DNA from: a virus
Length of the DNA: 55,818 nucleotides
Reading direction: 5' to 3' (one strand)
IMG/VR virus record: IMGVR_UViG_3300028822_000225
Coordinates: 1-55,818 of that record
A program made the translations under genes and the position numbers. Positions within the stretch are counted from its first letter, which is position 1, and each line of letters begins with the position of its first letter. The notes beneath the pieces were generated by a model that saw only the letters and a list, made by a program, of their open reading frames with translations, did no database searches and was not told the DNA's origin. Below are positions 236 through 55,818 of this stretch, piece after piece.

Positions 236-393
236 TGACAAAAGAAACACTACAATTCGAAATAAGTAATTTTTGTGATAACTGCAAAGAGTATGGAACA
301 GTTTATTATGATTACTTACTTGAAAAATATTGGTGTAAAAATTGTAAGAAAGAATCAAATAAAGATTTCACAACAAGGTATAGGAGAAAATGA
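235..393 (+). CDS. Small zinc-ribbon protein, 52 aa
   Basis: The ATG at 235 overlaps the previous stop, and the TGA at 391-393 overlaps the next ATG. Two cysteine pairs (CDNC near residues 14-17 and CKNC near 34-37), separated by a Tyr-rich stretch, form a typical four-cysteine zinc ribbon. The overlapping junctions on both sides and the paired cysteines support a real gene. Its role is unknown; small viral zinc ribbons often bind nucleic acid or protein. It is one of about ten such proteins in this genome. Confidence 0.75.
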   Translation: MTKETLQFEISNFCDNCKEYGTVYYDYLLEKYWCKNCKKESNKDFTTRYRRK

Positions 394-950
394 GAACATT
401 TGTGGTTTTAGGTGTTCCTCGTGGGGGAACAAGTATGATTGCTGGTTTACTTAGAATTTTCGGTATTCATATGGGAGATTATGTTGATGATACTAAACAT
501 GAGGCTCTTGAATTTGCTGGTTTAACTGTTGATGAGTGTATTGATTTGATTGAAATTAGGAATATTCGTGACGAAGATTGGGGTTGGAAGGAACCATGGA
601 TAGGTCTAATACTTAATGATATACATAATTCTTTTGCTAATCCACACTATATTTATATTTCAAGAGACTTAATTGCTTGTTTGAATAGTGATTTGAGACA
701 TAATGATACTTTTAAAGAAAGAGAGAACGCAGAGTCGTTTATCTGGAATAGGAACCTACACTTAGTTAATGAGATGAATAAGGTACTTAGATATGCAGAT
801 AAGAAACTACTATTGAGTTACGAGGAAAGTTTAAAAAGACCAGAAAATTTAATAGAACAACTTGAAACCTTTATTGGTAAAAAACTCTCTAAAGATAAGA
901 GGGAACAAGCAATTAAATTCATAAAACCAGGATATAGGAAAATAAAATGA
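390..950 (+). CDS. Sulfotransferase family protein (PAPS-dependent)
   Basis: The 186-aa protein begins with a beta strand followed by the PAPS 5'-phosphosulfate loop (PRGGTS, residues 10-15). It has the 3'-phosphate-binding strand motif ISRD at 90-93, the two hallmarks of the sulfotransferase fold. Members of this fold move sulfate from PAPS to a sugar, protein or lipid hydroxyl. It is shorter than typical carbohydrate sulfotransferases (about 250-300 aa), as is common in viruses. It lies upstream of a second sulfotransferase, a UDP-galactopyranose mutase and glycosyltransferases, so the acceptor is probably a surface glycan (inference). ATGA overlaps on both sides place it in one operon. Confidence 0.85.
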   Translation: MRTFVVLGVPRGGTSMIAGLLRIFGIHMGDYVDDTKHEALEFAGLTVDECIDLIEIRNIRDEDWGWKEPWIGLILNDIHNSFANPHYIYISRDLIACLNSDLRHNDTFKERENAESFIWNRNLHLVNEMNKVLRYADKKLLLSYEESLKRPENLIEQLETFIGKKLSKDKREQAIKFIKPGYRKIK

Positions 951-1102
951 AAAAAGCTAAATTTGGATGTGAACCATTATATAGGGAGGGAGACAAGTTT
1001 AGGGTTGTTAAAAAAAACAAAGACCCCAACCTTATGCCTATAGAAGCCCTACATTTGAGAACTAAACAAGTTTATGGATTTGAGGAGGATGAATTAGAAT
1101 GA
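947..1102 (+). CDS. Hypothetical protein, 51 aa
   Basis: The ATG at 947 overlaps the sulfotransferase stop, and the TGA at 1100 overlaps the ATG at 1099. The composition is basic in the middle and ends in an acidic tail (EEDELE) that also carries a GAGGAGGAT ribosome binding site for the next gene. No family is recognised. Confidence 0.6.
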   Translation: MKKAKFGCEPLYREGDKFRVVKKNKDPNLMPIEALHLRTKQVYGFEEDELE

Positions 1103-1287
1103 ATGAAAATAACTACTCAGGAGGAATTGGATTTTTAGGACTGCTTGGATTGTTATTCATAGGACTTAAATTAACTGGATACATTACATGGAGTTGGTGG
1201 TATGTGCTTATGCCTTTGTGGGGACCAATAGCGTTAGTAATATTTGTATTAATGATATTAATTGGGATAAATTTAATAAGGAGTTAA
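1099..1287 (+). CDS. Two-helix membrane protein, fragile-X-F-associated-like
   Basis: The 62-aa protein has two hydrophobic helices (about residues 8-30 and 38-60) separated by a Trp-rich segment WSWWYVLMPLWGP. Small two-helix phage proteins with a WSWWxVxxPLW core are usually annotated as transmembrane fragile-X-F-associated-like proteins; that match is from memory. Such proteins insert in the host membrane; their role is unknown. The start overlaps the previous stop (GAATGA) and is preceded by GGAGGA. Confidence 0.75.
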   Translation: MNENNYSGGIGFLGLLGLLFIGLKLTGYITWSWWYVLMPLWGPIALVIFVLMILIGINLIRS

Positions 1288-1288
1288 A

Positions 1289-1684
1289 ATGAGAAAAGGA
1301 AATTTCGTAAATTTAAATGATGCAATTCCACCTGAGGACCAAAAATTAAGAGATAGCGTTCAAAAAACTAAACACACGGAGGAAAAAGTTATGCAGACGA
1401 AATCAAGATACGAAGTAATCTCAGACCTTGAACAGCAAAAGAGAAATCTTATCAAGGAAAGAGATGGTCTTAAAGACGCTTTGAAAGAGAAGGAAAAGGA
1501 TATTAAGGACCTTGAGAGAAAGAAAAGCGATACTGTCTTGTATTTAGATAGACAGATTGAGGATGCCAAAGACGACCTTGAAAACTTCCAGAAAACACTA
1601 GAAGAAAGAAAGGAAACAATTAGTGAACTTATCAAGGGTGTTGATGAGAGTCTTCAAAGATTTAATGAAATGCAGCAGAAATAG
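1289..1684 (+). CDS. Coiled-coil protein, 131 aa
   Basis: The ATG follows the previous stop after one base. From about residue 30 to the end the sequence is almost entirely K/E/D/L/R with heptad-like leucines (DLEQQKRNLIKERDGL and similar), so a long coiled coil is expected. There are no cysteines, signal or catalytic motif. It is the last gene before a non-coding gap. Coding potential is convincing, the function unknown. Confidence 0.7.
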   Translation: MRKGNFVNLNDAIPPEDQKLRDSVQKTKHTEEKVMQTKSRYEVISDLEQQKRNLIKERDGLKDALKEKEKDIKDLERKKSDTVLYLDRQIEDAKDDLENFQKTLEERKETISELIKGVDESLQRFNEMQQK

Positions 1685-1689
1685 TTGCA

Positions 1690-1699
1690 TTTCTTTTTA
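1690..1699 (+). promoter_or_regulatory. Archaeal TATA box for the structured RNA at 1731-1837
   Basis: TTTTTATACT lies in the gap after the coiled-coil gene. Archaeal transcription usually starts about 25 nt downstream, near 1720, just before the predicted folded RNA begins. Inferred from position only. Confidence 0.45.
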
Positions 1700-1730
1700 T
1701 ACTCTTCAGAAAACAAAATCAAAAATTTGA

Positions 1731-1837
1731 CCCCCACCTGAGGAGATGCCCACTGTCGGGCTACCTTAATAAGATGGATAAGGTATAGTGCCTTAAACAG
1801 GTACATTTATATATCATAAATCGTTTCAAAGTGGGGG
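1731..1837 (+). ncRNA. Predicted structured RNA, three-way junction with alternative hairpins
   Basis: Complementary arms are nested: CCCCC (1731-1735) with GGGGG (1833-1837), and ACCTG (1736-1740) with CAGGT (1798-1802). They enclose two adjacent hairpins: GCCC/GGGC (1748-1751 with 1758-1761) and TACCTTA/TAAGGTA (1762-1768 with 1779-1785). The strand TAAGG (1779-1783) can instead pair with CCTTA (1791-1795), so two mutually exclusive forms exist, as in riboswitches. The GC-rich arms stand out in this AT-rich genome. A TATA box sits upstream and a second (1805-1815) lies inside the large internal loop, before the gene at 1853. I do not recognise a known RNA class. It could be a free ncRNA or a leader. 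Confidence 0.5.
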
Positions 1838-1852
1838 ATTCATACTCAAAAA

Positions 1853-2077
1853 ATGGACGAAGAATTTGCACAAGAACAGTTTAGAAAGTATTTGAAGAAA
1901 GTAGAAGAAATTTCGGATTTGAAAAATTATATTAAAAAATTAAAGAATACCATAACTGTTTTAGAAGAAGAAAACACAGAATTGAGGAAAGAAAATAAAA
2001 AAATGGGTAAAGAGATAGAAGAATGGATGAAAATATCTCCAAATTGCCATGCTGACCCAGATAGAAAAAATGAATAA
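1853..2077 (+). CDS. Coiled-coil protein, 74 aa
   Basis: First gene after the structured RNA. Residues 10-60 are a heptad-rich K/E/L helix with EEENTEL and RKENKK runs, typical of a coiled coil. A TATA-like ATTTATATAT (1805-1814) would give a start near 1838 and a leader of about 15 nt. No catalytic motif. Its last eight codons overlap the next gene. Function unknown. Confidence 0.65.
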   Translation: MDEEFAQEQFRKYLKKVEEISDLKNYIKKLKNTITVLEEENTELRKENKKMGKEIEEWMKISPNCHADPDRKNE

Positions 2078-2330
2078 AAAAGATAAAGAAAAAATAAAAA
2101 GACTAGCAGAAATCCTATATTTTGAAAAAGGAGTGGAGGAGATTAAATTTCTCCCCTTTCTTAGAAATGGCTATCCTAACTGGGTTAGTAAGTTATTTTA
2201 TAATCCAAAAAGAGATTATGTTGGTAAGTGGATAGAAGAAAAGGGAGAAGAAATTAAGGATATTATTTTTGCCTTAGCTGTTGAGGGAGATGTTGATTCT
2301 ATTTTAAGGGAGTTGGAAAAAAATGAGTGA
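2070..2330 (+). CDS. Hypothetical protein, 86 aa
   Basis: The frame is open further upstream, to an ATG at 2049. I prefer the ATG at 2070 (MNKKDKEKIKRLAEIL), which gives a shorter overlap with the preceding gene and a natural basic-helix N-terminus. The protein is mixed helical with no cysteines. Its 3' end overlaps the radical SAM start by 8 nt, indicating translational coupling. No family recognised. Confidence 0.65.
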   Translation: MNKKDKEKIKRLAEILYFEKGVEEIKFLPFLRNGYPNWVSKLFYNPKRDYVGKWIEEKGEEIKDIIFALAVEGDVDSILRELEKNE

Positions 2331-3336
2331 AATTTTTGGACAAGACAAGATATTTAGTCATGTAGATAAAATACACAATTGGCTAGAAGGAGACCCAAAT
2401 ACATTAATCACTATGGAGATGGACCCAACAGATAATTGTAATAACAATTGTCCAGGGTGTGCAGGGGGGAGAACAGGCCAATCATCCTTAACATTGGAAG
2501 AAATGACTGGTTACATTGACCAGATGAAAGATATTGATGTTAGAGGTCTTATTTTTTCAGGGGGAGGTGAACCCTTAGTTAATCCATCTACGCATAAGGC
2601 TATTTCTCATGCTAGAATGTCTGGATTGGATGTTGGTTTTATAACTAATGGTCTTGCTTTAAAAGAGGATTTATATGATACTCTCCTAAATGATTGTACA
2701 TGGATTAGATTTAGTTTAGATGCTGGAACCCCTGAGATGTATAAACAAACTCATGGGATGAATGAAAGAGCCTTTAATAAGGTTCTTGAAAACATTAGAG
2801 GGATTTCTAGTCGTAAAAAAGAAATTGGTTCTGATTGTACATTGGGAGTTGGTTATCTTGCAGGTAAGGAAACTTTGGGTGATATGGTTAATTTCGCAAG
2901 AATAAGCAGCGAATTAGGTGTAGACTATGCACAATTTAGACCCTTTCATAGAGACCGTACTTCAATAGCTCCAGAACTTGCTAAGTCAAAGAAATATGAA
3001 AGAGATGATTTCAAAGTACTTCATTCTGCACAGAAATATAAACATTTTTTAGAGGAAAACCCCAGACCATATAATGAATGTCATGGAGTTAATTTTGCTT
3101 CAGTAATCCAAGCTGATTCAAATTTGACTACTTGCTGTCACATGAGGGGGAAACCTAAGTATTACTTAGGCAATCTAAAAGAAAATACACTTAGGGAAAT
3201 ATGGGAATCGGATAAGAAAAAAGAAGTTTTTGAAAATATTGATTTTAATGATTGTGTTCCTTACTGTAGATGCGATTCGTTCAATAGGGTACTTTATGAT
3301 ATTAAACAAGAAAAGACACATAAGAATTTTTTATAA
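2323..3336 (+). CDS. Radical SAM enzyme with C-terminal SPASM-like cysteine cluster
   Basis: 337 aa. The radical SAM CxxxCxxC motif is at C39, C43 and C46, with the SAM-binding GGGEP at 80-84 after a hydrophobic strand. The C-terminal part carries C253, C271, C272, C311, C315 and C317 in a SPASM/twitch-like pattern that would bind auxiliary iron-sulfur clusters. SPASM enzymes modify peptides, sugars or cofactors by radical chemistry; the substrate here is unknown. Flanked by a sulfotransferase and UDP-galactopyranose mutase, so a glycan-related substrate is the simplest guess. The other main option is a peptide-modifying (sactisynthase-like) role, but no precursor peptide was seen. Confidence 0.9.
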   Translation: MSEIFGQDKIFSHVDKIHNWLEGDPNTLITMEMDPTDNCNNNCPGCAGGRTGQSSLTLEEMTGYIDQMKDIDVRGLIFSGGGEPLVNPSTHKAISHARMSGLDVGFITNGLALKEDLYDTLLNDCTWIRFSLDAGTPEMYKQTHGMNERAFNKVLENIRGISSRKKEIGSDCTLGVGYLAGKETLGDMVNFARISSELGVDYAQFRPFHRDRTSIAPELAKSKKYERDDFKVLHSAQKYKHFLEENPRPYNECHGVNFASVIQADSNLTTCCHMRGKPKYYLGNLKENTLREIWESDKKKEVFENIDFNDCVPYCRCDSFNRVLYDIKQEKTHKNFL

Positions 3337-3337
3337 A

Positions 3338-3907
3338 ATGATTTACTTTATACATATACCAAGAACAGGCGGTGGAAGTTTAACCAAAGCCATTGAAGAT
3401 AATAATGCGAACATTAAGAGAATAGGGCATAACACTTATAATCCAAAATGGAAATCCGCAAATGATATTTTGGAAGAAGAACAAGGGGCAGAGTTTTTTA
3501 CAATCCTTAGAAATCCTTATGATAGGATAATTTCTGTTTATAAGGCATTAAAGTTTAATCCGGGTACTAGTGATATGGAATTTTATAAAAAATATATGAA
3601 AAAATATAATAATATTAATGAATTTGTGGACGATTTGGATTTCTTAATTAAAAATACAAACAATCCCCACATTAAACCACAAACTTTCTTCATCCCAATG
3701 GAAGAATCGATAGGAATATTTTTTTATGAGAAGATGGAAATGCTTAAAGAATTTTTAGATATTTTTGATAGTAATATATTTAATTCTTTTAAAAGTGCTA
3801 AAAGGCATTTATCTCCTAAGAAAGATATTCAATTAAATGAGGAATCTAAAAAAAAGATAGCAAAGATTTATGAAATAGATTTTGCTTTCGGGGGTTATCA
3901 AAAATGA
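3338..3907 (+). CDS. Sulfotransferase family protein, second copy
   Basis: 189 aa from the ATG at 3338, one base after the radical SAM stop; a longer open frame overlaps that gene and is rejected. The N-terminus IHIPRTGGGSL (5-15) is the PAPS 5'-loop of the P-x-x-G-G type seen in membrane carbohydrate sulfotransferases. RNPYDRIISVYK (58-69) is the 3'-phosphate motif with the usual R-P-Y-R-S-Y spacing. It is not a recent duplicate of the protein at 390: the two share only the motifs. Predicted to sulfate a glycan. Its stop overlaps the next ATG. Confidence 0.87.
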   Translation: MIYFIHIPRTGGGSLTKAIEDNNANIKRIGHNTYNPKWKSANDILEEEQGAEFFTILRNPYDRIISVYKALKFNPGTSDMEFYKKYMKKYNNINEFVDDLDFLIKNTNNPHIKPQTFFIPMEESIGIFFYEKMEMLKEFLDIFDSNIFNSFKSAKRHLSPKKDIQLNEESKKKIAKIYEIDFAFGGYQK

Positions 3908-4908
3908 AATTTAAAATAATTGGAGCTGGGTTGACAGGGTTAACAATAGCTAGAATTATGCAAGATGCAGGACATAATGTTACTGTATTTGAGAAAGGTG
4001 AAAATATTGGTGGGCTTTGTAGAGATGTTAAAGAGAGAAAGTCAGGGGTTTGGTATAATCCACACGGAGTTCACATTATGCATTTCAGAGAATCAGATAA
4101 AGAGGCACTCTCATTCATTAAAAAACATGTTAGATTGATTAGTTACAATCACAGAGTCCTGATGCTTGGTAAGGGAACTTTTGGATATTTCCCTCCTAAT
4201 GAATTGTCTCAAGAATTATATAATATTACTAATCCCAGAGATTCTTTCTTTAAGGAATTCATAAAATCTTATTCTAAAAAAATGTGGGGATTAAAATGGA
4301 ATATAATAAAGAAGAAAATTAGTAATAGATTTGCTTTCCAGAACAAGAGAAATTATTCTTTCTTCGGAAGTGAAAAAGTCTTTGTACCAGAAAATTATAC
4401 TAAATTATTTGAAAACCTTTCTAAAGGAATTAAGATAAAATTTGGGAATAGGGTTGATGTTACAGACTACAAATTAGATAAAGAGAAATCTATTTATATC
4501 ATAACATCTCCAATTGATGAATTCTTTTTAAATTGTTATGGTAAATTGAGTTGGAGAGGTATAGAAATTGGAAATCATTTAATCAAAACGAATGAAAATA
4601 TTTTACCTGAAGCAGTAGTAAATACAAATAAACATCCTAAACTACTTAGAATGGTTGAATATAACCAATTACCTCATAATAGGAAAAGTACAGGATATAG
4701 TATAATCTCTTTAGAATATCCTTCTAAAAAAGAGAATCTTTGTTATCCTATCCCAACTAAAAGTAATGAACGAAAGTTAAATAAATACTTAGAGCTTTCT
4801 AAAAGTTATGAAGATATTTACTTTGTTGGGAGGCTTGGGGAATACAAGTATAAAAACATGAATGAAGCGATTGCAGATGCTATTAAATTTTGTGAGAAAT
4901 TCAAATGA
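3904..4908 (+). CDS. glf: UDP-galactopyranose mutase-like FAD enzyme
   Basis: 334 aa. The N-terminal dinucleotide loop is GAGLTG (7-12) with the acidic end of strand 2 (VFEKG, 28-32) and IGGLCRD (35-41). NPHGVHIMH (52-60) corresponds to the substrate loop (usually YGPHIFHT). A C-terminal GRLGEYKYKNMNEAI (about 309-323) matches the family's second FAD signature. The enzyme interconverts UDP-galactopyranose and UDP-galactofuranose, supplying Galf for glycans. Slightly shorter than the usual 367-390 aa. With glycosyltransferases downstream it points to a galactofuranose-containing surface polymer. The general FAD amine oxidase family is the alternative. Confidence 0.85.
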   Translation: MKFKIIGAGLTGLTIARIMQDAGHNVTVFEKGENIGGLCRDVKERKSGVWYNPHGVHIMHFRESDKEALSFIKKHVRLISYNHRVLMLGKGTFGYFPPNELSQELYNITNPRDSFFKEFIKSYSKKMWGLKWNIIKKKISNRFAFQNKRNYSFFGSEKVFVPENYTKLFENLSKGIKIKFGNRVDVTDYKLDKEKSIYIITSPIDEFFLNCYGKLSWRGIEIGNHLIKTNENILPEAVVNTNKHPKLLRMVEYNQLPHNRKSTGYSIISLEYPSKKENLCYPIPTKSNERKLNKYLELSKSYEDIYFVGRLGEYKYKNMNEAIADAIKFCEKFK

Positions 4909-4926
4909 GAACTAATATTCAGGGGA

Positions 4927-5008
4927 GTGTGCAGGAAGTAAAAACCTTGAAAAATCTTTCTAAGAAAGTTTCATTTATCGTTGGTGTATTGTTTCCTTCC
5001 TCGCACAC
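4927..5008 (+). repeat. Duplicated hairpin element, copy A
   Basis: GTGTGCAGGAAG (4927-4938) pairs with CTTCCT-C-GCACAC (4996-5008): 12 bp with one bulged C. The loop contains an internal hairpin, CTTTC/GAAAG closed by TGAAA/TTTCA (about 4949-4973). Copy B at 52217-52299 has identical arms and flanks (GGGAGTGTGC before, TTTAAAATGAAA after) but a different loop. Both copies can be read as short ORFs (here 4905-5018, 37 codons), yet the arms are in different frames in the two copies. The conservation is therefore of DNA or RNA, not protein. Each copy lies shortly upstream of a gene of the same paralogous family (5142 and 52340). Confidence 0.75.
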
Positions 5009-5019
5009 ATTGATTTAAA

Positions 5020-5145
5020 ATGAAAGATAAAAAAAGAAAAGAATTACTTGAATGGAAATATCATAAAGCATTACAACTTAAACAATATGATAGAGCAAAG
5101 GTGTATTTAAAATTATTAAAAGAATTGGAGGAAAAAGAAGAATGA
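5020..5145 (+). CDS. Small charged protein, 41 aa, ending in the LEEKEE joint
   Basis: ATG at 5020 directly follows the hairpin element. Basic N-terminal helix and acidic end LLKELEEKEE, whose DNA (5125-5145) supplies GGAGG and the ATGA overlap for the next gene. The same end sequence recurs at seven other gene boundaries. Probably a short helix; function unknown. Confidence 0.55.
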   Translation: MKDKKRKELLEWKYHKALQLKQYDRAKVYLKLLKELEEKEE

Positions 5146-5405
5146 GTAAAATAAAAACTATAAAAGATTTGAAAGAGGATATTATGTATTTTGATTTTAG
5201 AAAAGAAACATTTAAACACCCTCATTATAAAAGAAAAGATGAAGAAGAATTTAAAGAAAGATTTACAGCGGGAACGATGAATATAGTTTCAGTAGAAGAA
5301 CTAAAAGAAGAAGCAATTAAGTGGGTTAAGGAGTTTAGACATCAGGGGAATTGGGAAGAGAAGTTCATTCGTTTCTTTAATCTCACAGGGGAGGATTTGG
5401 AATGA
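5142..5405 (+). CDS. Paralogous family protein, KTLKDL / FFNxTxEDLE type, member 1
   Basis: 87 aa. Begins MSKIKTIKDLKED, has a central VEELKEEAIKWVKEF helix and ends FIRFFNLTGEDLE. The same three blocks occur in the proteins at 49775 and 52340, and the end block in the one at 9704. I recall similar proteins in archaeal metagenome data, but no function. Start overlaps the previous stop (ATGA) with GGAGG upstream; its own end carries GGAGGATTTGG before the next ATG. Conserved hydrophobic and acidic positions suggest a folded helical domain. Confidence 0.75.
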   Translation: MSKIKTIKDLKEDIMYFDFRKETFKHPHYKRKDEEEFKERFTAGTMNIVSVEELKEEAIKWVKEFRHQGNWEEKFIRFFNLTGEDLE

Positions 5406-6739
5406 AAACACTTGTAGTTGCTAAATATAATGAGGATACCAAATGGACAAGAGATTTTGAAAATGTAGAGATAATTCATAAGGGAGTGGATTTACCTAAT
5501 TTTGGAAGAGAACAACATACTTTCCTTTGGTATATTGTGAATAATTATGAGGAACTTAATGGATATTATTTCTTTGTTCAAGGAAATCCTTTTGACCATT
5601 GTGAGGATTTAAAGGAAGTTTATGAAACTCGTTTAGAAAAGAAATGGACACCTTTAGGGAAGAAACTGGGAAGTAAAAAAGGGGAACGTATTTGTGAATT
5701 GGATGGGAGACCACATCATGGAACAGGAAATTTAAAAATTAAAGAATTCTTATCAGATATTGGGATAAATTATAATCGTAATTTGATTAAATTCTATGCT
5801 GGAGGGCAATATTCTATTCATTCTAGTGAGATAAAAAAGAAACCGAAAGAATATTATGAAAAAGTTCTTAATTTATTTGATAAATATGGAGAAAAGGCAG
5901 GATATATCTTAGAAAGAGTTATGCAATTTGTATTTAATTGGAAGGAATTTGAACATTATGTTGTTACTAGATTTGCTTACCCAACCAATTATCCTTATTT
6001 TGAAGAGAGAAAAAGGATTTTCAAATTATTTTTAATTGAATGTTTAAAAGAACAGACTAATAAAAACTTTAAATTTATAATAATTGGAAACGATAAAACA
6101 CATGAATTAGAAGAAGAACTAAAAGGAATTAATTATCAAATCTTACATGAGGGCTTGGGATTTGTTAAAGAAAAACCTTTAGAAGTTTTCGACCTTCAAT
6201 GTAATTATCTTATAACTACAAGATTTGATGATGATGATTTAGTTCACCCAGAATTTGTGGGAAAGATTCAAGAATTATTCAAAAAATTAGATTATCTTTC
6301 TCCCTATGTAATAGATTTTAAGGGTTTTAGATATGATATGAGAAATCGTAAGGCCTATAAAGTTACTGAGTATGACCCTAGAACTGGTTGGGGAACTTCT
6401 CCTTTCTTAACTTTTGTTGAAAAAGCAGATATAGAAAACATAAAGACTTGTGTCTACCTTAAACATGGGCATATGGGACATAATTTCCATTTACACTATG
6501 TGGACCAAGAATATTGGATTCAGGTTGCACACCATCTTAACATTTCAAACAACAAATTGCCTCGCTTATTTAAATATCCTGAAGTTAAGGAAAGACTCTA
6601 TTTTTCTAAATATATAAAATTCTTACTTGAAAATTTTAATTTAGTTGATTATAGTGATGTTGTTATCACTAATGAATACTTGAAAAAGATTAAAAAAGAG
6701 AAGGATTATTTAGATAAAGAAATTACTAAAGAAAAATGA
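5402..6739 (+). CDS. DUF3431 domain fused to a putative rhamnosyltransferase-like glycosyltransferase
   Basis: 445 aa, two domains. Residues 1-180 start VVAKYNEDTKW and contain LPNFGREQHTFLWYI and FVQGNPFDH, the signature of DUF3431 proteins, found near glycosyltransferases. Residues 186-440 contain VVTRFAYP, the FKLFLIECLKEQTNKNF stretch and ITTRFDDDDLVHPEF (D276-D279), matching the putative rhamnosyltransferase family with a DxD-type metal site. The fusion implies that both parts act on the same glycan. It sits between a small family gene and a second glycosyltransferase, with overlapping junctions, in the glycan cassette. The donor sugar cannot be told. Confidence 0.8.
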   Translation: MKTLVVAKYNEDTKWTRDFENVEIIHKGVDLPNFGREQHTFLWYIVNNYEELNGYYFFVQGNPFDHCEDLKEVYETRLEKKWTPLGKKLGSKKGERICELDGRPHHGTGNLKIKEFLSDIGINYNRNLIKFYAGGQYSIHSSEIKKKPKEYYEKVLNLFDKYGEKAGYILERVMQFVFNWKEFEHYVVTRFAYPTNYPYFEERKRIFKLFLIECLKEQTNKNFKFIIIGNDKTHELEEELKGINYQILHEGLGFVKEKPLEVFDLQCNYLITTRFDDDDLVHPEFVGKIQELFKKLDYLSPYVIDFKGFRYDMRNRKAYKVTEYDPRTGWGTSPFLTFVEKADIENIKTCVYLKHGHMGHNFHLHYVDQEYWIQVAHHLNISNNKLPRLFKYPEVKERLYFSKYIKFLLENFNLVDYSDVVITNEYLKKIKKEKDYLDKEITKEK

Positions 6740-7608
6740 TAAGTGTAATTACTTGTGTTTGGAACAGAGAGAATGAAAGGATACAAAACTGTATAGATTA
6801 TTTAAAAGACCAAGTAGACGAGATAATAGTTGTCGATTATGGAAGTGATGAACCTATAAAAATTAATAATGCTAAAATAATTAGGTATGATAAAAATCCT
6901 GTATTTAATAAATCTCATGCACTAAATTTAGGAATTAAGGCTGCCAAAAATAAATTTATTATGTGTGTAGATTGTGATATGATTATTCCCGAAGATGTGG
7001 TTTCTGATATAAAAAACACTTTGATAGACGATGCAACTTTTATAATAAATACAAATGTTAATAGGATAAATAAGGGGGACATTGGTAATTGGGATAAGGC
7101 TTTCCCTTGGCATAAGGAAAATATTGGTATGAATCGTGCGAGGTCCTCTGCAAATGGGGGGATGCAAGTATTTTCAAAAGAATGGGTAGAAGAAATTCAT
7201 GGATATGATGAACAATTCATACTATTGGGATGTATGGATAATGATATGGTGAATAGGGCTGTTTTCAGTGAAATGAGAATAATTGATGTTAATATGCCTA
7301 TATATCATCAAGAACATGAAAAGAAGAAGGGAGATGTTTTTGGTAAAGAAAATGAGGAGAAAGTTAACTTTATCACAAACGAGAAACTGCATTACTACAT
7401 AGAAAAAACAAATAATATGATTGTAAAAAATCCAGGTCCTTGGGGAGAAGATGAACCAAATCAAGATAAATTCATAAGTTTATGGACTAATTGGGATGAA
7501 ACATTTCCTGCATTACAAGACAAACGTGAAAAAATGCTTCAAGAAATTAAAAATTTTATAATTGAAAAAAAAATACCTATAAAAAAAATGGATGTGAAAT
7601 GGAAATAA
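6736..7608 (+). CDS. Family 2-like glycosyltransferase (GT-A fold)
   Basis: 290 aa. The N-terminus ISVITCVWNRENERIQNCI is the start of a GT2 nucleotide-binding domain. CVDCDMII (77-84) gives the DxD metal and sugar-nucleotide motif (D79, D81). The GYDEQFILLGCMDNDMV stretch (about 155-171) resembles the C-terminal galactosyltransferase-type segment, with the ED/DN base region. Transfers a sugar from a nucleotide donor to a glycan acceptor; the galactosyl preference is a guess. Start overlaps the stop of the preceding gene. Confidence 0.85.
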   Translation: MISVITCVWNRENERIQNCIDYLKDQVDEIIVVDYGSDEPIKINNAKIIRYDKNPVFNKSHALNLGIKAAKNKFIMCVDCDMIIPEDVVSDIKNTLIDDATFIINTNVNRINKGDIGNWDKAFPWHKENIGMNRARSSANGGMQVFSKEWVEEIHGYDEQFILLGCMDNDMVNRAVFSEMRIIDVNMPIYHQEHEKKKGDVFGKENEEKVNFITNEKLHYYIEKTNNMIVKNPGPWGEDEPNQDKFISLWTNWDETFPALQDKREKMLQEIKNFIIEKKIPIKKMDVKWK

Positions 7609-7862
7609 AAAAGAGAAAATCAACCTATACTCTGGGGGAAAAGGTAAAATTTTACATAGCTCTTAAATTGAATAAAAACCCTGAATATTGTTGGATGAAT
7701 TTGGTTTTATGGGTATTAGGTTATAGAAGTTTTTGGAGTTTGTTTTTTAAAAATCACCCTGAAAATGATTATAAAGACCAATCTTGCAGAGAAGATAATA
7801 TTTATTGTCCTTATGCTTATTGTGGTAAATGTGAAGAAACAGGGAGGTTTTATAATAAATGA
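7599..7862 (+). CDS. Hypothetical Cys- and Trp-containing protein, 87 aa
   Basis: Overlaps the glycosyltransferase end by 10 nt and ends overlapping the next ATG. A hydrophobic stretch (YCWMNLVLWVLGYRSFWSLFF, about 30-50) could be a membrane-surface helix. It is followed by four cysteines (SCRED, YCPYAYCGKC) near 68-83 that may bind a metal. No family recognised. Its position between two glycosyltransferases suggests a role in the same pathway. Confidence 0.65.
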   Translation: MEIKKRKSTYTLGEKVKFYIALKLNKNPEYCWMNLVLWVLGYRSFWSLFFKNHPENDYKDQSCREDNIYCPYAYCGKCEETGRFYNK

Positions 7863-8518
7863 AAAAGAAAATCCTTATAGCAATCATAAGTAATAGAAGT
7901 GCTTGGTCTAAACATTTTTCTATGAGTTTGGTTAATTTAATCCATGAAACAAGAATGAAACACAACATTGAATGGATTAATGTTTCTAGTTGTGATGTTA
8001 ATTATATGAGAAATCGTGCATGTCTTATTGCTCAGGCTAAAGGGAATGAGGCTCGGGAATGGAATTATGATTATATTGTTATGTTAGATGATGACCACAT
8101 TTATCCTGAAGATTTCATTAATAAATTTGTGGATTATGATTTACCTGTAGTCACCGGATGCACTAGTCAAAGAACCCCCCCATACAAACAGACTCAATAT
8201 AAACAAATAAAAGGGATTGGGATGAAAGATGAAGAAAATATTGTTAATCCTAAAGAAACTGAGGGGTTAGTTCAAATAGATGCTAGTGGGCCTGTAGGGA
8301 TGTGTATTAAGACAGAAGTCCTTGAAAAAATGAAATATCCTTATTTCGAACAGATTAATCTAAATAATAGTCCAAGTATCCGTGGTGGAGATATTCAATT
8401 TTGTCAACAATTAAAAGAATTAGAAATACTTCTTTATTTGGATAGTTCAGTATCATTTCCCCATTGTGCGGGAGATACATTATATGCAGATAGAGGGCAA
8501 GTTCATTATCACCCATAA
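7859..8518 (+). CDS. GT-A glycosyltransferase-like protein, 219 aa
   Basis: Contains MRNRACLIAQAK (50-61), a Rossmann-like segment, then DYIVMLDDDHIYPEDF (71-86) with the DDD metal motif at 77-79. DASGPVGMCIKTEVLEKM follows in the acceptor half. This layout matches the short Anp1/GT2-like glycosyltransferases frequent in phages and archaeal viruses. It closes the glycan cassette. The C-terminus ends HYHP* before a non-coding stretch with inverted repeats. Sugar and acceptor unknown. Confidence 0.8.
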   Translation: MKKKILIAIISNRSAWSKHFSMSLVNLIHETRMKHNIEWINVSSCDVNYMRNRACLIAQAKGNEAREWNYDYIVMLDDDHIYPEDFINKFVDYDLPVVTGCTSQRTPPYKQTQYKQIKGIGMKDEENIVNPKETEGLVQIDASGPVGMCIKTEVLEKMKYPYFEQINLNNSPSIRGGDIQFCQQLKELEILLYLDSSVSFPHCAGDTLYADRGQVHYHP

Positions 8519-28425: not shown

Positions 28426-31400
28426 TTATACCTCCTCAATTATCATATAACCACTTGCATTTACATACTGTTTCCAACAATTTGCTCCATTACAAAAGGT
28501 TTGATAACTTGAATTGGTTACATTATTATTGCTCATATCAAGATTTCCAGTCATTGTATCTCCAGTATCATCTAAATATTGGTCATCTAATGCTGTATTG
28601 CTCAATGTTAGTGAACCATAAGTTCCACTTACTTCTCCTCCGAAGGAATCTCCTAATTCAATATACTCATCATCAAGACTTCCAGAAACAATATTTCCTG
28701 ATGAATCCAATTCTCCTGCATCTTCCCATTCTATGTTTCCACTTGCATCTATATTTGCACTTGAACCCAAAACACCTGTATTATCTACATCTAATTCTTC
28801 TCCATCACAAGATAAATAATTTCCATCGTGTTCAGAGCAATGTGCTTCATCTTCATAACTTAAACCAATTACCCAATCATATATTTGGTCTGCTGTACTT
28901 AGATGTGTTGTATCTCCATTGCTTGGTGTTGCTGTTGGAACATCTCCTATTGCATCCCAAAATGTTCCCTGTAACCATGAAATTACATTTGCTCCATTGA
29001 ATCCTATTGAATCTCCTGCATCATCATAAGTAAAATTAGCTGTAAAGGCACTTCCTACTGCATCCTGCATTTCTTCTGTTGTGTTATAAGTATTTGTGTC
29101 CGTGTCATCAAAATAAGCACTTGAACTTTGACAAGTTCCATTCCCAAGTAAGACTTCATCTGTTGCACACTCTGTACTTGCATTTGTATCAGTTGTATAA
29201 TCTAATTCAGAATCATAGGTGATAGCATCACAAGAACCATCTACTGAACAGTTTGAAATTGTTGTGTCTGTATCTCTTGCATCTATTGTATTATTTAAAT
29301 ATGTTTCATTGAAATCTAAATTAACTGAACCACTCGCACTTCCACCTAATAAGTATGGAGTCAAACCAGTCAAAACCTCTGTTATATCTCCACTTCCTGT
29401 TCCTGCATCACTTAGGCAATTTCCTCCCTCAATACAAATATCTTGAGTAGTATTTATTGTCCCATTAGCTAAAACAGAACCATTTATATGCAGTTTTCTT
29501 AGTGGTGAGCTTGTGCCTATTCCTATTTCTCCACTTTCTTTAATTGTCATTATTTCATTATTAGAACTATCCAAAAAATACATGTAAGTATCTGTGTCCC
29601 TTAGTCTAAATGTAAGGTCTCCTATTGTTGCATAAGGTCTTACTCCCCCTGAACCTATATTTAAATAAGCTGAAACTCCCCCTGAACCTATATTTAAATA
29701 AGCTGAACTACCTGTGGAAATTGAACCTCCGGGAATCGAAACACTTAATAAATCATCCCCATTATGTTCAAACATCATAAATCCTCCCCACGGTTTGGGT
29801 TCTACATATATACCTATTTCTTCCTCTACTTCTTGAGAACCATCCCATCTCGAGCCAGTAACTCCTAGTCTATAACTTTCATATAAAGTATTATCTGCGT
29901 CTGCTGTTCCCTTTTTTCCTACAGACATATTTCCACCTTCAATATTATAATCTCCTGTCGCTGTGTCTCCGTCGTTTTTTAAATAAGCATCATCATTTGA
30001 AATTGCATTTATAGCCCTTGCTTCTGTAAAATATAAATTAGTGCTTCCTTCTGTTAGGTTATCTGTGTCTTTTCCAGAAAACCATGAATCAATAAAATTA
30101 GTTAAAAAAGTATCAAATATTCCTAATTTTCCATCTGCTTGTTCTTCTAATTCACTCGTGTTATAAAGATTATCATCTATAATATTTGTATTTGTGTCTG
30201 CTTCGTATTGTTCTGTTTCACAGGTTCCATCTCCACTTAAATAAGTGTCTGTTCCTGAACAAGCAGTTGAAGCATTTGTATCAGTTGTATAATCTAATTC
30301 TGAGTCGTATGTAATTAATCCACAAGAGTTATCTACTGAACAATTTGTATCTGCTTCATAATCATCTCCATCATCCAATCCACTTGGAACATTAGTCAAA
30401 TTATCCCAGTGGCTTATTATTAAATTGTTTAAATCACCTGCCACATCATAATTATCCCAATAATTACTTGAATTAACATTGAAATTTCCTTCGTTTCCTA
30501 TATTTGTTATATTGTTGTTACTCATATTTAAGTTTCCAGACATATTTACATTTTTAACACTTAAAGTATCTGTTGTTTTATTATAAGAAAAATTACAATC
30601 TTGATATAATTCTCCTTCGCCATTAGCAAAAATAACACATCCTGAATTAAAATTATCTAATTCTCTGTCTATATCTATTAAAATTTGTCCTTGATTTTCA
30701 CTACTTCTTATTACTGTTCCTACCCTAAAAGATTTGTTTGGAAAAGAAGGTTTAACATTAGTATATTCTCCTGCATTAGTTGCAGAAACATATAAAAAAT
30801 CTCCTTCTGAATATGTAGATGTATTTAATTCTCTAACCCTTCCAAAAGTTGTAATATATCCTACTGCGTTATTAGAAATAGAATTTTCTGTAACCATTCC
30901 AATCATTCTTGAAGTTGAAAGATTATCTGATTTTGCTAATTTTACCTGTGGATTATCTCCAGTAGAACCCATTATATAAACTACATCTCCATTGTTAATA
31001 GTGCTTCCTTCTGTATTTTTAACTCTCATTAATAATTCTTCTCCAATATTTACTGCAACATCTTCTTCGTCATTAAAATAAACTAACGTTTTTTGCTCAT
31101 CATCGTAAAAAACCCTTCCTTCTGAATAAGAAGGAGTACTTCCTTGAGGATAATAATCTGTATAAGTAAAATTAGAATTAGTGCCATTTATATGAGTAAA
31201 TCTATTATCTGATTGTGTTTCGTTGTAAAATCCAAGAGATTGAACAAAACTCATAACTATTCTATTGTCTATTAATAAATTAATAAAACTATCTAAAATT
31301 CCTAATTTTCCATCTGTTTGTTCTTCTAATTCACTTGCATTGTAAAGATTATCATCTATTATGTTATTTCCTGATGATATTCCAGTCAATTGGCTTCCAT

Positions 31401-31575
31401 TTCCATAATAAATTGTATAATTACTTGTTGTTCCCTGTGCATATTTAACATTTGTAAGATTATGGTCTCCGTCTCTTAAATTTATATTATCATAACCATA
31501 AGGAGTCCAATCTGCTGAAGATATTAATCCTATTAAGACTATACTTGCAATTAGGAAGGTTATTATTTTTTTCAT
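28426..31575 (-). CDS. Giant tail fibre-like protein with signal peptide, 1049 aa
   Basis: A classic signal peptide (MKKIITFLIASIVLIGLISS, likely cut after SSA near residue 21) is followed by repeated phage-fibre blocks. These include NLTEGSTNLYFTEARA, DGDTATGDYNIEGG, EIGIGTSSPLRKLHING and DTMTGNLDMSNNNVTN. Two long repeats share the ITYDSELDYTTDTNAS segment. SAYLNIGSGGV is duplicated exactly (DNA repeat 29642-29707). Acidic and sequon-rich. The blocks are those of trimeric fibres; the signal peptide is not expected in a normal fibre and suggests export. Confidence 0.78.
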   Translation of the reverse strand: MKKIITFLIASIVLIGLISSADWTPYGYDNINLRDGDHNLTNVKYAQGTTSNYTIYYGNGSQLTGISSGNNIIDDNLYNASELEEQTDGKLGILDSFINLLIDNRIVMSFVQSLGFYNETQSDNRFTHINGTNSNFTYTDYYPQGSTPSYSEGRVFYDDEQKTLVYFNDEEDVAVNIGEELLMRVKNTEGSTINNGDVVYIMGSTGDNPQVKLAKSDNLSTSRMIGMVTENSISNNAVGYITTFGRVRELNTSTYSEGDFLYVSATNAGEYTNVKPSFPNKSFRVGTVIRSSENQGQILIDIDRELDNFNSGCVIFANGEGELYQDCNFSYNKTTDTLSVKNVNMSGNLNMSNNNITNIGNEGNFNVNSSNYWDNYDVAGDLNNLIISHWDNLTNVPSGLDDGDDYEADTNCSVDNSCGLITYDSELDYTTDTNASTACSGTDTYLSGDGTCETEQYEADTNTNIIDDNLYNTSELEEQADGKLGIFDTFLTNFIDSWFSGKDTDNLTEGSTNLYFTEARAINAISNDDAYLKNDGDTATGDYNIEGGNMSVGKKGTADADNTLYESYRLGVTGSRWDGSQEVEEEIGIYVEPKPWGGFMMFEHNGDDLLSVSIPGGSISTGSSAYLNIGSGGVSAYLNIGSGGVRPYATIGDLTFRLRDTDTYMYFLDSSNNEIMTIKESGEIGIGTSSPLRKLHINGSVLANGTINTTQDICIEGGNCLSDAGTGSGDITEVLTGLTPYLLGGSASGSVNLDFNETYLNNTIDARDTDTTISNCSVDGSCDAITYDSELDYTTDTNASTECATDEVLLGNGTCQSSSAYFDDTDTNTYNTTEEMQDAVGSAFTANFTYDDAGDSIGFNGANVISWLQGTFWDAIGDVPTATPSNGDTTHLSTADQIYDWVIGLSYEDEAHCSEHDGNYLSCDGEELDVDNTGVLGSSANIDASGNIEWEDAGELDSSGNIVSGSLDDEYIELGDSFGGEVSGTYGSLTLSNTALDDQYLDDTGDTMTGNLDMSNNNVTNSSYQTFCNGANCWKQYVNASGYMIIEEV
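29642..29707 (-). repeat. Exact 33-nt tandem duplication in the fibre gene
   Basis: 29642-29674 is repeated without change at 29675-29707. It adds 11 residues in frame (SAYLNIGSGGV twice). Confidence 0.95.
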
Positions 31576-49778: not shown

Positions 49779-50131
49779 GTAAACTTAAAACCCTTAAAGA
49801 TTTGAAAAGAATAGAAGACGACCATCAGATCCTGAATATTGATGAAATAGAAGAATATTCTGGATATGGGAGAACTAAAGAAGATGTAATAAAAGAAGGA
49901 GATAAAGATAGTTATGCTTCATTTTATGATTTAAAACAAGAAGCGATTAGGTGGATAAAGGTATTAGAAGAAGATGCAAAAGAAATCGCAAATAATAATG
50001 TAATTCCCTACCACCAGGGAGAACAGCAGATAAGATGTTATGAATTCCAAAAGAAGATGGAATTAGTTAGTTGGATTAAAAACTTCTTTAATATCACAAA
50101 AGAAGATTTAGAAGGAGAAAAAGAAGAATGA
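49775..50131 (+). CDS. Paralogous family protein, KTLKDL / FFNxTxEDLE type, member 2
   Basis: 118 aa. MSKLKTLKDLKRIEDD at the start, a middle FYDLKQEAIRWIKVLEED helix and the ending WIKNFFNITKEDLEGEKEE. Same block order as 5142 and 52340, with a longer insert (EYSGYGRTKEDVIKEGDKDS). Start overlaps the zinc protein stop. Function unknown. Confidence 0.72.
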   Translation: MSKLKTLKDLKRIEDDHQILNIDEIEEYSGYGRTKEDVIKEGDKDSYASFYDLKQEAIRWIKVLEEDAKEIANNNVIPYHQGEQQIRCYEFQKKMELVSWIKNFFNITKEDLEGEKEE

Positions 50132-50697
50132 GTGAAGAAAGCATTGTAAGTCAAATGAAGAAAGAATATGAGGGAGAAATAAAAACATTTGAAGAATGGA
50201 CTAAAATTCTTGCAGAAAAATTAATTGGAATAAAAATAATAACTTCAAATAAAGTTAAGGCGATAAGAACTGAGCGAGAGAGAAATAAAAGATATTTGAG
50301 CGAGAGAGAAATAAAAGATATTAAGTTTAGATTTAAAAAAATGAAAGATAAAATCAAAGAAAAGTTAGAGAAAGAGATTGAAGAAATTAAACCAATAAAA
50401 ATGATTATGGTTTGTGATGAAGTTGGTTGTGCTTCAAATAGAGAGGGATTTTGTCAAAGAGCAATAAAATGTGATGGAAAAAAAGGAGATATTGATTACA
50501 AGAGGGTGATTAAAACAAAACAATTAGAACAACACGAAGAAACAAAAAAAGCAGAACGAGAGAGGATTAGGGAGATAGCAAGAAGGCTTAATGATAAGTT
50601 CAGAGCAGATAATACTCCTCAAACATTAAGTGGTGATGAATTTAATGATGTTTGGGAAGAAGAATTAATAAAAAAATTGGGAGAAAAAGAAGAATGA
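50128..50697 (+). CDS. Fused small protein, 189 aa, formed by a 26-nt tandem duplication
   Basis: Residues 1-57 (MSEESIVSQMKKEYEGEIKT...) and 72-189 look like two former genes. The second part starts MKDKIKEKLEKEIEEIKP, as do the separate proteins at 51919 and 53541, then has CDEVGCASNREGFC cysteines and HEETKKAERERIREIARRL, shared with them. The joint TERERNKRYLSEREIKDIKF is read from the repeat 50271-50322 in two different frames. With a single repeat unit the first frame would stop (TAT TAA). It ends with the GGAGAAAAAGAAGAATGA joint. Confidence 0.7.
   Translation: MSEESIVSQMKKEYEGEIKTFEEWTKILAEKLIGIKIITSNKVKAIRTERERNKRYLSEREIKDIKFRFKKMKDKIKEKLEKEIEEIKPIKMIMVCDEVGCASNREGFCQRAIKCDGKKGDIDYKRVIKTKQLEQHEETKKAERERIREIARRLNDKFRADNTPQTLSGDEFNDVWEEELIKKLGEKEE
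50271..50322 (+). repeat. Exact 26-nt tandem duplication joining two reading frames
   Basis: 50271-50296 is repeated exactly at 50297-50322. Since 26 is not divisible by 3, the second copy is read in another frame and removes a stop codon. Confidence 0.95.
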
Positions 50698-51665: not shown

Positions 51666-51929
51666 ATGAATGAAGCAATAATAAACCATATAATAAGCAT
51701 TATAACAGTAACATTATCAATTATCTTATTACTTACATCTATACTTGTTTTAGGTATACAAGACAATAAAAAAACAGATTTAGAAAATAAATTAGAGAAA
51801 AAACAAGAGATTATTAATGAACTTTGTAAGACATTTCAAGAATATAAACCTGACGAAGATTTTACTAGTAGAGCAATCTCTGAAAAAGAAGTAAAATATC
51901 TTTATTTATGTAATCAAAATGAAAGATAA
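51666..51929 (+). CDS. Single-helix membrane protein, 87 aa
   Basis: A long hydrophobic segment near residues 6-30 (IINHIISIITVTLSIILLLT), a K/E coiled coil (DLENKLEKKQEIINELCKTF) and a C-terminal YLYLCNQNER. It overlaps the next gene by 11 nt. Could be a small membrane anchor with a cytoplasmic coiled coil. Confidence 0.6.
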   Translation: MNEAIINHIISIITVTLSIILLLTSILVLGIQDNKKTDLENKLEKKQEIINELCKTFQEYKPDEDFTSRAISEKEVKYLYLCNQNER

Positions 51930-52194
51930 AATCAAAGAAAAGTTAGAGAAAGGTTTAGATTTACTTAAACATGTAGAAGATTATGATTTTGACGTCTTTA
52001 GTGAGAATGCTGAACTTTTGGAATATACACACTTTCAAGGAAGATTAAAACAACACGAGGAAACAAAAAAAGCAGAAAGAGAGAGATTTTTAAGATTGAT
52101 AGAACGACACGAGTTTGAACACGGGGATTTTCAAGGACTAATTATAAGTTCTGTAGAATTATTAAAAAAAGAATTGGAGGAAAAAGAAGAATGA
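51919..52194 (+). CDS. MKDKIKE / HEETKKAERER family protein, 91 aa
   Basis: Starts MKDKIKEKLEKGLDLLKHVE, has LKQHEETKKAERERFLRLIE and ends VELLKKELEEKEE. The first and third blocks occur in 50128 and 53541 as well. Basic/acidic helices. The GGAGG joint (52174-52194) ends it, followed at once by hairpin element copy B. Confidence 0.65.
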   Translation: MKDKIKEKLEKGLDLLKHVEDYDFDVFSENAELLEYTHFQGRLKQHEETKKAERERFLRLIERHEFEHGDFQGLIISSVELLKKELEEKEE

Positions 52195-52339: not shown

Positions 52340-52648
52340 ATGAAAGAACTTAAAACATTAAAAGATATTGAATTTTTTGATGACCATGATAACCATATAG
52401 CAAAGGAATATAATGACAGTGTTAAGAATGATTTGAAAGCCGAAGCTGTGAAGTGGATTTATAAATTTGATGAAGACCCTTATTATATGGAGCAGGAAAA
52501 TGGAGAGATAATGAAATGGATTATGTATTTTTTTAATATAACAAATGAAGAATTGGAGGAAAAAGAAGATGATTGTGATAAAGGAAAAGAAAAAGGAGAT
52601 GACATAAGAATCTGTGGATATAAAATATTGGAGGAAAAAGAAGAATGA
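52340..52648 (+). CDS. Paralogous family protein, member 3, extended through a damaged joint
   Basis: 102 aa. MKELKTLKDIEFFDDHDN at the start, DLKAEAVKWIYKFDEDP in the middle and MYFFNITNEELEEKE where the other members end. Here the joint sequence GGAGGAAAAAGAAGATGA has one A fewer than the normal GAAGAATGA, so the frame continues through DDCDKGKEKG to a second LEEKEE end. This makes a C-terminal extension of about 26 residues and a lost separate gene. Confidence 0.68.
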   Translation: MKELKTLKDIEFFDDHDNHIAKEYNDSVKNDLKAEAVKWIYKFDEDPYYMEQENGEIMKWIMYFFNITNEELEEKEDDCDKGKEKGDDIRICGYKILEEKEE

Positions 52649-53541
52649 AAGACAAAAAGTATAAATTAACAAATGAGAAAAAAGAAGTTTTTGGGAGAAC
52701 ATTATATAGAATAGAGGCAATTAGAAATTTTGGAATTATAGAAAAAGGAGAATTGGGGGGATTTATTGAAAAAGAAGAAAATTTATCTCATTATAGAAAT
52801 GCCTGGGTGTATGGAGATGCTAAGGTGTATGGGTATGCTGAGGTGTATGGAGATGCTGAGGTGTGTGGAGATGCTGAGGTGTATGGGTATGCTGAGGTGT
52901 ATGGAGATGCTGAGGTGTATGGAGATGCTGAGGTGTGTGGAGATGCTAGGGTGTGTGGAGATGCTAAGGTGTGTGGAGATGCTAGGGTGTATGGAGATGC
53001 CTGGGTGTATGAAAAGGCTAGGGTGTATGAAAAGGCTAAGGTGTGTGGAGATGCTAGGGTGTGTGGAGATGCTAAGGTGTGTGGAGATGCTAGGGTGTAT
53101 GGAGATGCTGAGTTGTTTGGAAATGCAACAATAAAAGAACAGCAAAAAATAACAACAGGATTTATTACAAAACCTTTAGAAGGAAAATATAGTTTTATGG
53201 CACAAATAGGTTTTTATCCTACTGATGAATTTATTTTATATAAAAGAGTGAATAAAGTCAGCGAGGGAAAATATTCAAGTGGTTATGATAAAAATTTTAT
53301 ATATAAAGATGGAAAAATAAAAAATTTTATATATAAAGATGGAAAAATAGTTGAAGTTAAAAATCCAGATATGTCCAACAAATCTTGTTCAAAAGGAATA
53401 CATCTATCTAATCCACTATATTGGGAACAAGGAGATACTATAATAGCCTGTCAAGTAAAATGGAAAGATGTTATAACAATACAAGAGGGAAAGGTCAGAG
53501 TAAAAAAATGTTATGTAATTGGAGAAGTAAATGATTTTTAA
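52645..53541 (+). CDS. Hexapeptide-like beta-helix protein with DUF7666-like C-terminus
   Basis: 298 aa. Residues 1-55 read KKEVFGRTLYRIEAIRNFGI then GELGGFIEKEENLS. Residues 55-155 are about eighteen copies of a six-residue unit of the type V-Y/C-G-D-A-x, which would form a left-handed beta helix. The rest (about 165-298) is a compact domain (GFYPTDEFILYKRV, KCYVIGEVNDF). This form is known in many phages and thought to be structural or polymer-forming. DNA of the repeats is highly uniform, so the number of units probably varies. Part of the rightward accessory operon. Confidence 0.72.
   Translation: MKDKKYKLTNEKKEVFGRTLYRIEAIRNFGIIEKGELGGFIEKEENLSHYRNAWVYGDAKVYGYAEVYGDAEVCGDAEVYGYAEVYGDAEVYGDAEVCGDARVCGDAKVCGDARVYGDAWVYEKARVYEKAKVCGDARVCGDAKVCGDARVYGDAELFGNATIKEQQKITTGFITKPLEGKYSFMAQIGFYPTDEFILYKRVNKVSEGKYSSGYDKNFIYKDGKIKNFIYKDGKIVEVKNPDMSNKSCSKGIHLSNPLYWEQGDTIIACQVKWKDVITIQEGKVRVKKCYVIGEVNDF
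52806..53112 (+). repeat. Tandem 18-bp repeats encoding the beta helix
   Basis: Units such as GTGTATGGAGATGCTGAG and GTGTGTGGAGATGCTAGG repeat about seventeen times with small changes; some copies are almost identical. This suggests recent expansion by slippage or recombination. Confidence 0.9.
53290..53349 (+). repeat. Exact 30-nt tandem duplication
   Basis: 53290-53319 is repeated exactly at 53320-53349, adding KNFIYKDGKI in frame to the beta-helix protein. Confidence 0.95.
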
Positions 53542-53849
53542 TGAAGATGAAAGATAAAATAAAAGAACAAATAAGAATGATGCAAGAAAAAAACATTAAT
53601 AGAGTTTATATTCCTAATGGAGCTTTCAGAAGATTAGAAGTTATGATAGATAAAGCAATAGAAGAAACAAAAAAAGCAGAACGAGAGAGGATTTTGGATT
53701 TGGTTAATGAATTGGCTTCTTGGACTTGTGAATGTAATTGTATCACTTTTGATAATGGAAAATGTAGAAATTGTGGGAAATCTCCAAAATATGGAGAATT
53801 AGATGTTGAAGAATTTAAAAGAAAATTGGAGGAAAAAGAAAATGGTTAA
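53541..53849 (+). CDS. MKDKIKE / EETKKAERER family protein with zinc ribbon, 102 aa
   Basis: MKMKDKIKEQIRMMQEKNIN at the start, IEETKKAERERILDLVNEL in the middle, then CECNC and CRNC cysteines (about 66-80) and an acidic end carrying the GGAGG joint. Shares two blocks with 50128 and 51919 but has an added zinc ribbon. An ATG two codons on is possible. Confidence 0.65.
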   Translation: MKMKDKIKEQIRMMQEKNINRVYIPNGAFRRLEVMIDKAIEETKKAERERILDLVNELASWTCECNCITFDNGKCRNCGKSPKYGELDVEEFKRKLEEKENG

Positions 53850-54078: not shown

Positions 54079-54257
54079 AAAGTAGCAATATAATTCCACA
54101 GGAAATGAAGGGGTATTATACCAACGATAAAACAGATGTTTTTCCAGACCATTATTTCCAATGGAAAGTTCGTTTAACCTATATTCCCAGCAGGAAGAAC
54201 AAATTTAAATTTTCAAGCAGGAAGAACAAATTTAAATTTTCACTCCCAGCGTTATAA
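54075..54257 (+). CDS. Small protein with a 9-residue internal duplication, 60 aa
   Basis: MKSSNIIPQEMKGYYTNDKT, an aromatic FQWKVRLTYIP and the duplicated unit SRKNKFKFS, ending LPAL. The duplication is recent at DNA level. Function unknown. Confidence 0.58.
   Translation: MKSSNIIPQEMKGYYTNDKTDVFPDHYFQWKVRLTYIPSRKNKFKFSSRKNKFKFSLPAL
54189..54242 (+). repeat. Exact 27-nt tandem duplication
   Basis: 54189-54215 is repeated exactly at 54216-54242; adds nine codons in frame. Confidence 0.95.
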
Positions 54258-54764: not shown

Positions 54765-55724
54765 ATGAGATACTTCAGTATATTTACAGGAATCGGTGGA
54801 TTTGAATATGGAATACAACAAGCATTACCAAACGCAGAATGTGTCGGATACTCAGAGATTGACAAATACGCAATCCAAACTTACGAAAGACACTTCAAAC
54901 ACAAAAACTATGGAGACGCAACAAAAATTAAGCCAGAAGAATTACCAGACTTTGATATGCTCTGTGGAGGATTTCCTTGTCAAGCATTCTCAATCGCTGG
55001 AAAACGGAGAGGTTTCAAAGATACCAGAGGCACGATGTTTTTTGAGATTGCAAGAATACTTGAAGTTAAAAGACCTAAGATTGTATTCCTCGAAAATGTC
55101 AAAGGGTTACTCAATCACCAAAAAGGGGAAACTTTCAGAGTCATCATTCAAACGCTTTCAGAATTGGGGTATGATGTTCAATGGATGGTTCTTAACAGCG
55201 AATTTTTTGGAGTTCCCCAGCAACGGGAAAGAGTCTATATTATTGGACTACTTAGAGGAAAATCCATCAGAGAAATCATTTCTTTCAAAACAAGAAATAA
55301 AAAAGATAGTGAGTTGTTATCAACCAAGAGAGTTCAAAACTGGAAAAAGACAAGGTGCAATTACATTAAATACGAAGATTCCGAAAAAAGCGTGGACTCT
55401 TACATCAACGAGAATAATTGGGAGGACTTCATTTGTGATTCCAAGATGAGAACTTTAACACCAATAGAATATGAAAGATTGCAGGGATTCCCTGATGGAT
55501 GGACAGAAGGAGTATCCGACACACAGAGATACAAACAATGTGGTAATGCTGTAACAACTAAAGTAATAAAATCCATCATGGAGAAACTAATCGTGGGCAA
55601 GTTTACTCAAGGGGCTACGCCCTCGTTTAATAAGGATTTAGAGGTTTCGGCTACGCCTACACCCAAATCGCCTTCGGCGACTTCTCCAAACCCTAATATT
55701 AAACAAACTTCAGAAGAAAAATGA
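54765..55724 (+). CDS. dcm: DNA (cytosine-C5) methyltransferase
   Basis: 319 aa. Motif I FTGIGGFEYG (7-16), motif IV GGFPCQAFS (68-76, catalytic C72), motif VI VFLENVKGLL (108-116), motif VIII QQRERVYIIG, and the C-terminal motifs RLQGFPDGW and QCGNAV. Methylates cytosine at C5 in a specific site, probably to protect viral DNA from host restriction; the target site cannot be read. No restriction partner is nearby. The last 45 residues are an odd Pro/Ser/Thr tail (ATPTPKSPSATSPNPN) encoded by short GC-rich hairpins, perhaps a trace of transfer. Confidence 0.92.
   Translation: MRYFSIFTGIGGFEYGIQQALPNAECVGYSEIDKYAIQTYERHFKHKNYGDATKIKPEELPDFDMLCGGFPCQAFSIAGKRRGFKDTRGTMFFEIARILEVKRPKIVFLENVKGLLNHQKGETFRVIIQTLSELGYDVQWMVLNSEFFGVPQQRERVYIIGLLRGKSIREIISFKTRNKKDSELLSTKRVQNWKKTRCNYIKYEDSEKSVDSYINENNWEDFICDSKMRTLTPIEYERLQGFPDGWTEGVSDTQRYKQCGNAVTTKVIKSIMEKLIVGKFTQGATPSFNKDLEVSATPTPKSPSATSPNPNIKQTSEEK
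55611..55682 (+). repeat. Cluster of short GC hairpins in the methyltransferase tail
   Basis: GGGCTACGCCC, CGGCTACGCC and CGCCTTCGGCG lie within about 70 bases, each a 3-5 bp stem with a three-base loop. Base composition differs sharply from the rest of the genome. Confidence 0.7.
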
Positions 55725-55818
55725 ATAAAGAAAAAACAAAAAAACTTTATTTAAGAGAACTAAAGATACCCAGAAAATTTACTTATGATGTTTCTTTAGA
55801 TATAATTGAAAAAGATTA
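55675..55818. repeat. Terminal direct repeat, right copy
   Basis: Identical to 1-144. Contains the start (55721) of the 62-aa gene that is complete at 47-235. Confidence 0.95.

Follow-up and report, generated by a model that had tools for sequence, protein, structure and literature searches.

A 26-nt tandem duplication that joins two small viral genes is probably an assembly artefact

The duplicated locus and its reading frames

The stretch of DNA analysed here (the window) is the whole 55,818-nt viral record IMGVR_UViG_3300028822_000225. The locus under study holds, as deposited, a single 189-aa ORF that runs through an exact repeat (Table 1). This repeat is certainly present in the deposited sequence: the unit TGAGCGAGAGAGAAATAAAAGATATT occurs in exactly two head-to-tail copies, at 50271-50296 and 50297-50322, with zero mismatches and with no additional matching base on either side of the pair, and the exact tandem duplication claimed in an earlier, sequence-only reading of this DNA is thereby confirmed. 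Across 100 Markov-1 genomes of matched composition and length, exact matches at offsets of 15-60 reached at most 16 nt, as against the 26 nt observed, so the repeat did not arise by chance similarity.

It had also been proposed that the two copies are read in different frames, that with only one copy the upstream frame ends at TAA, and that the downstream part starts with MKDKIKE like two separate proteins of the same genome; all three statements are correct. The 189-aa ORF reads the two copies in two frames, and removal of one copy leaves a 56-aa ORF ending in TAA, followed 16 nt later by the start of a 118-aa ORF with the N-terminus MKDKIKEKLEKE. The frame of the 118-aa ORF is open upstream only as far as a TAA just before the repeat, and codon usage over the ~30 nt around the repeat gives a signal too weak for a choice of frame.

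Table 1. Positions of the features at the duplicated locus and of the other exact two-copy arrays in the window
Feature	Position	Strand	Remarks
189-aa ORF as assembled	50128..50697	+	crosses both 26-nt copies in two frames
Tandem 26-nt pair	50271..50322	+	identical copies, zero microhomology
First gene, one-copy state	50128..50296	+	56 aa; TAA stop at the end of the unit
Second gene, one-copy state	50341..50697	+	118 aa; MKDKIKE start; paralogues at 51919 and 53541
37-nt start cassette	50338..50374	+	identical to 51916-51952
Sister duplication, 33 nt x 2	29642..29707	-	in frame, ORF 28426-31575; single copy in IMGVR_UViG_3300000374_000004
Sister duplication, 30 nt x 2	53290..53349	+	in frame, ORF 52645-53541
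Sister duplication, 27 nt x 2	54189..54242	+	in frame, short ORF ending at 54257

The start of the 118-aa ORF lies in a 37-nt cassette whose identical copy opens a separate 91-aa protein (start at 51919), and a near copy opens the protein at 53541/53547. To judge from these shared beginnings, MKDKIKE appears to be the true N-terminus of a small set of paralogues in this genome arm. With a single copy the locus regains the start found in the paralogues, and its original state is likely to have been two adjacent small genes of a tailed-virus genome.

The three MKDKIKE proteins also have in common a 26-nt internal stretch encoding ETKKAERER. The cassettes concerned lie at 50536-50568, 52060-52085 and 53661-53693, the first and third being identical over 33 nt, and beyond these and the common start the three proteins are dissimilar. 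A further 22-nt cassette, ATTGGAGGAAAAAGAAGAATGA, is found on the + strand at seven sites with at most three mismatches (5124, 50676, 51001, 51606, 52173, 52627 and 54057). It mostly spans a gene junction, codes for the common C-terminus LEEKEE and at the same time resembles a ribosome-binding site for the gene that follows. That these small proteins end alike may therefore be a property of the junction and not a mark of kinship between the proteins. The genome arm looks like a mosaic of short, nearly identical modules.

The two ends of the record share an exact direct repeat of 144 nt (1-144 and 55675-55818), which indicates a circular, circularly permuted or terminally redundant genome. In a related 51,589-bp contig (L011, L012, L006), the gene order likewise joins the two ends of the window. 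The run of genes at 390-8518 comprises, as assigned by eye, a putative sulfotransferase, a radical-SAM protein, a UDP-galactopyranose-mutase-like protein and glycosyltransferases, and the related contig L012 carries a similar, not identical, gene set.

Searches for relatives

Searches of viral contigs, 84,980 genomes and 50,697 phage records, whose reach was to close relatives only, yielded no homologue of the fused 189-aa protein, and no contig besides the window was found among the viral contigs, genome contigs and phage records to cover 50271-50322. Matches of the fused protein in Pfam and PHROG were weak, below the cut-offs, and are not taken as evidence. The second half of the protein has paralogues beginning MKDKIKE in the same genome and no relatives in six related or partly similar records, and at the same close-relative reach no orthologue of either half was found. 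As baits, the neighbouring gene at 49775 retrieved distant relatives only, and those at 51019, 53128-53538 and 54259 retrieved none. Terminase and capsid baits recovered one identical contig and two contigs that are ~76-82% alike, the longer of which has the corresponding arm without a counterpart of the fused gene; the terminase search of genome contigs gave no match.

Three further exact duplications in the window

Four exact two-copy arrays in the window, three of them absent from the earlier reading, were revealed by Tandem Repeats Finder together with a scan for exact repeats; their units are 26, 27, 30 and 33 nt long, and each has 2.0 copies, 100% identity and zero microhomology. At all three sister sites (33, 30 and 27 nt) the ORFs stay intact when one copy is removed. 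Outside a natural 18-nt solenoid array, the window's remaining arrays with a unit length of at least 20 nt are ~78-82% identical internally, so that the arrays are either perfect or well diverged and no intermediate age class is seen. The protein encoded at 52645-53541, where the 30-nt pair lies, contains a YdcK-type beta-solenoid with 18-nt repeats (Pfam B_solenoid_ydck, E 2.6e-14). The C-terminal part that follows is similar to phage proteins, of which several carry the annotation RIIB lysis inhibitor. In an Oceanotoga phage, the distantly homologous counterpart of the 53290 region shows a gap at roughly the position of the second 30-nt unit, which fits a derived insertion there, whether real or made in assembly.

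No comparable duplication (exact, with a unit of at least 25 nt and not of low complexity) was found in 464 kb of comparison sequence, comprising IMGVR_UViG_3300000374_000004, three related or partly similar viral contigs, and the isolate phages Oceanotoga phage, T4, P-SSM2, phage K, BUCT083 and AhMtk13a. Assuming an equal rate, the probability that all four would fall within 55.8 of ~520 kb is ~1e-4. Four uniform exact arrays in the range of 26-33 nt, with none alike in the comparison set, count in favour of an origin in assembly.

The lengths of the units lean somewhat towards the opposite view. Of the four, three are multiples of 3 (P ~0.11 if lengths were random), and a random 26-nt duplication would fuse genes at 149 of 47,367 coding positions (~0.3%), yet the 26-nt unit fuses rather than truncates. 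Units that keep the frame, together with so rare an outcome as a fusion, fit selected real duplications somewhat better than random insertion, although gene fusion would also be rare among real duplications that are tolerated. If the four duplications were real, a single enzymatic process of the virus or its host might have made them all, generating coding variants and here joining two genes, for example through staggered nicks spaced by ~30 nt, with subsequent fill-in and rejoining; we consider this very improbable.

Replication slippage was considered and is disfavoured: there are 0 extra matching bases at any of the four arrays, despite the exact tandem copy. The earlier proposal that slippage had created a new fusion protein survives in part. 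A single copy does read as two genes, and the downstream gene has a natural start that it shares with two neighbours. Slippage itself finds no support in the 26-nt junction or the three sister junctions, all with zero microhomology, and the claim of a real new fusion protein is likewise not supported, since one of the four duplications is absent from a separate, otherwise identical contig.

Comparison with a separately assembled contig

That contig, IMGVR_UViG_3300000374_000004 (20,606 bp), was recovered by the terminase search. Aligned with window positions 39168-18530, it shows zero mismatches and one 33-nt gap, which corresponds to exactly one unit of the 29642 duplication, and by this alignment the two sequences are judged to come from the same virus. 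Long duplications free of microhomology are far rarer than substitutions. The finding of 0 substitutions in 20.6 kb together with one 33-nt duplication therefore makes ordinary mutation a very unlikely explanation, and leaves either copies made in assembly or, less likely, fresh copy-number variants.

The second of these alternatives would be a real and very young polymorphism, in which the strain in the window carries the four duplications and the strain in the sister contig lacks at least one of them. The 26-nt duplication would then join two genes in the window strain, with no sign that the fused product is used. It is in keeping with such a polymorphism that the frame is preserved by three of the units, while the remaining one joins two frames into one that stays open. 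The sister contig, moreover, derives from a named sample, one of three sequenced replicates of Pond 1C sediment from reclaimed salterns near San Francisco (PMC6048260), so that samples may differ in their strains. However, the lack of any substitution beside a microhomology-free 33-nt duplication would require duplications to arise at about the frequency of point mutations, and the 464 kb of comparison sequence holds no such duplications. We regard this explanation as possible, but doubtful.

It might instead be supposed that two copies are true everywhere and that the 33-nt repeat was collapsed during assembly of IMGVR_UViG_3300000374_000004. Assemblers using short k-mers can collapse tandem copies, and the longest exact repeat resolved in this contig is only 29 nt. 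Collapse of the 66-nt array would, however, need k of 33 or less, whereas a JGI pipeline documented for the period, whose use for this contig we infer, worked with k of 81-101 (PMC4149020), and a collapse is accordingly unlikely.

The explanation that we prefer, and on balance think probable, is that the second 26-nt copy and with it the fused frame were made in assembly or merging, and that the locus really consists of two genes, of 56 aa and 118 aa. A short stretch shared by two pieces of sequence would have been written twice when the contig was assembled or merged, and the same fault would have given rise to the three sister copies of 27, 30 and 33 nt. Absence of the extra copy from a second assembly is seen at the 33-nt site 29642-29707, the one comparable site; that the 26-nt and 33-nt copies have a common origin, and that this origin is technical, is what the likeness of the arrays suggests. 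The 189-aa frame is thus probably artefactual and is not counted here as a biological entity. It counts against an origin in assembly that this JGI pipeline, as described in the paper cited above, also used merge overlaps of 80 nt, and with such k-mers and overlaps would not obviously create copies of this kind.

Implications and comparison with known systems

Should the copies stem from assembly, the record is wrong in its 189-aa 'fusion' and in three genes that the extra copies lengthen, and a set of exact two-copy repeats of 26-33 nt that lack microhomology would serve as a rapid alert when other contigs are inspected. Real copies would mean that short stretches are duplicated in this virus at about the rate of single-base mutation, which would be unusual. 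Annotators of IMGVR_UViG_3300028822_000225 should be cautioned that the fused frame exists in the assembly and is probably an artefact.

Replication slippage is known to give tandem duplications that shift the frame or fuse genes, and the repeat at 50271-50322 resembles its products in being an exact tandem copy, with a length that is not a multiple of 3, that joins two frames. It differs from them in that there is no flanking microhomology, and in that three sister events occur on the same contig, one of them missing from an otherwise identical contig. The joining of overlapping pieces in draft metagenome assemblies is, equally, known to leave short duplication artefacts. The copies in the window share with such artefacts the form of short, exact, two-copy repeats free of microhomology, present, at the comparable site, in one assembly only.
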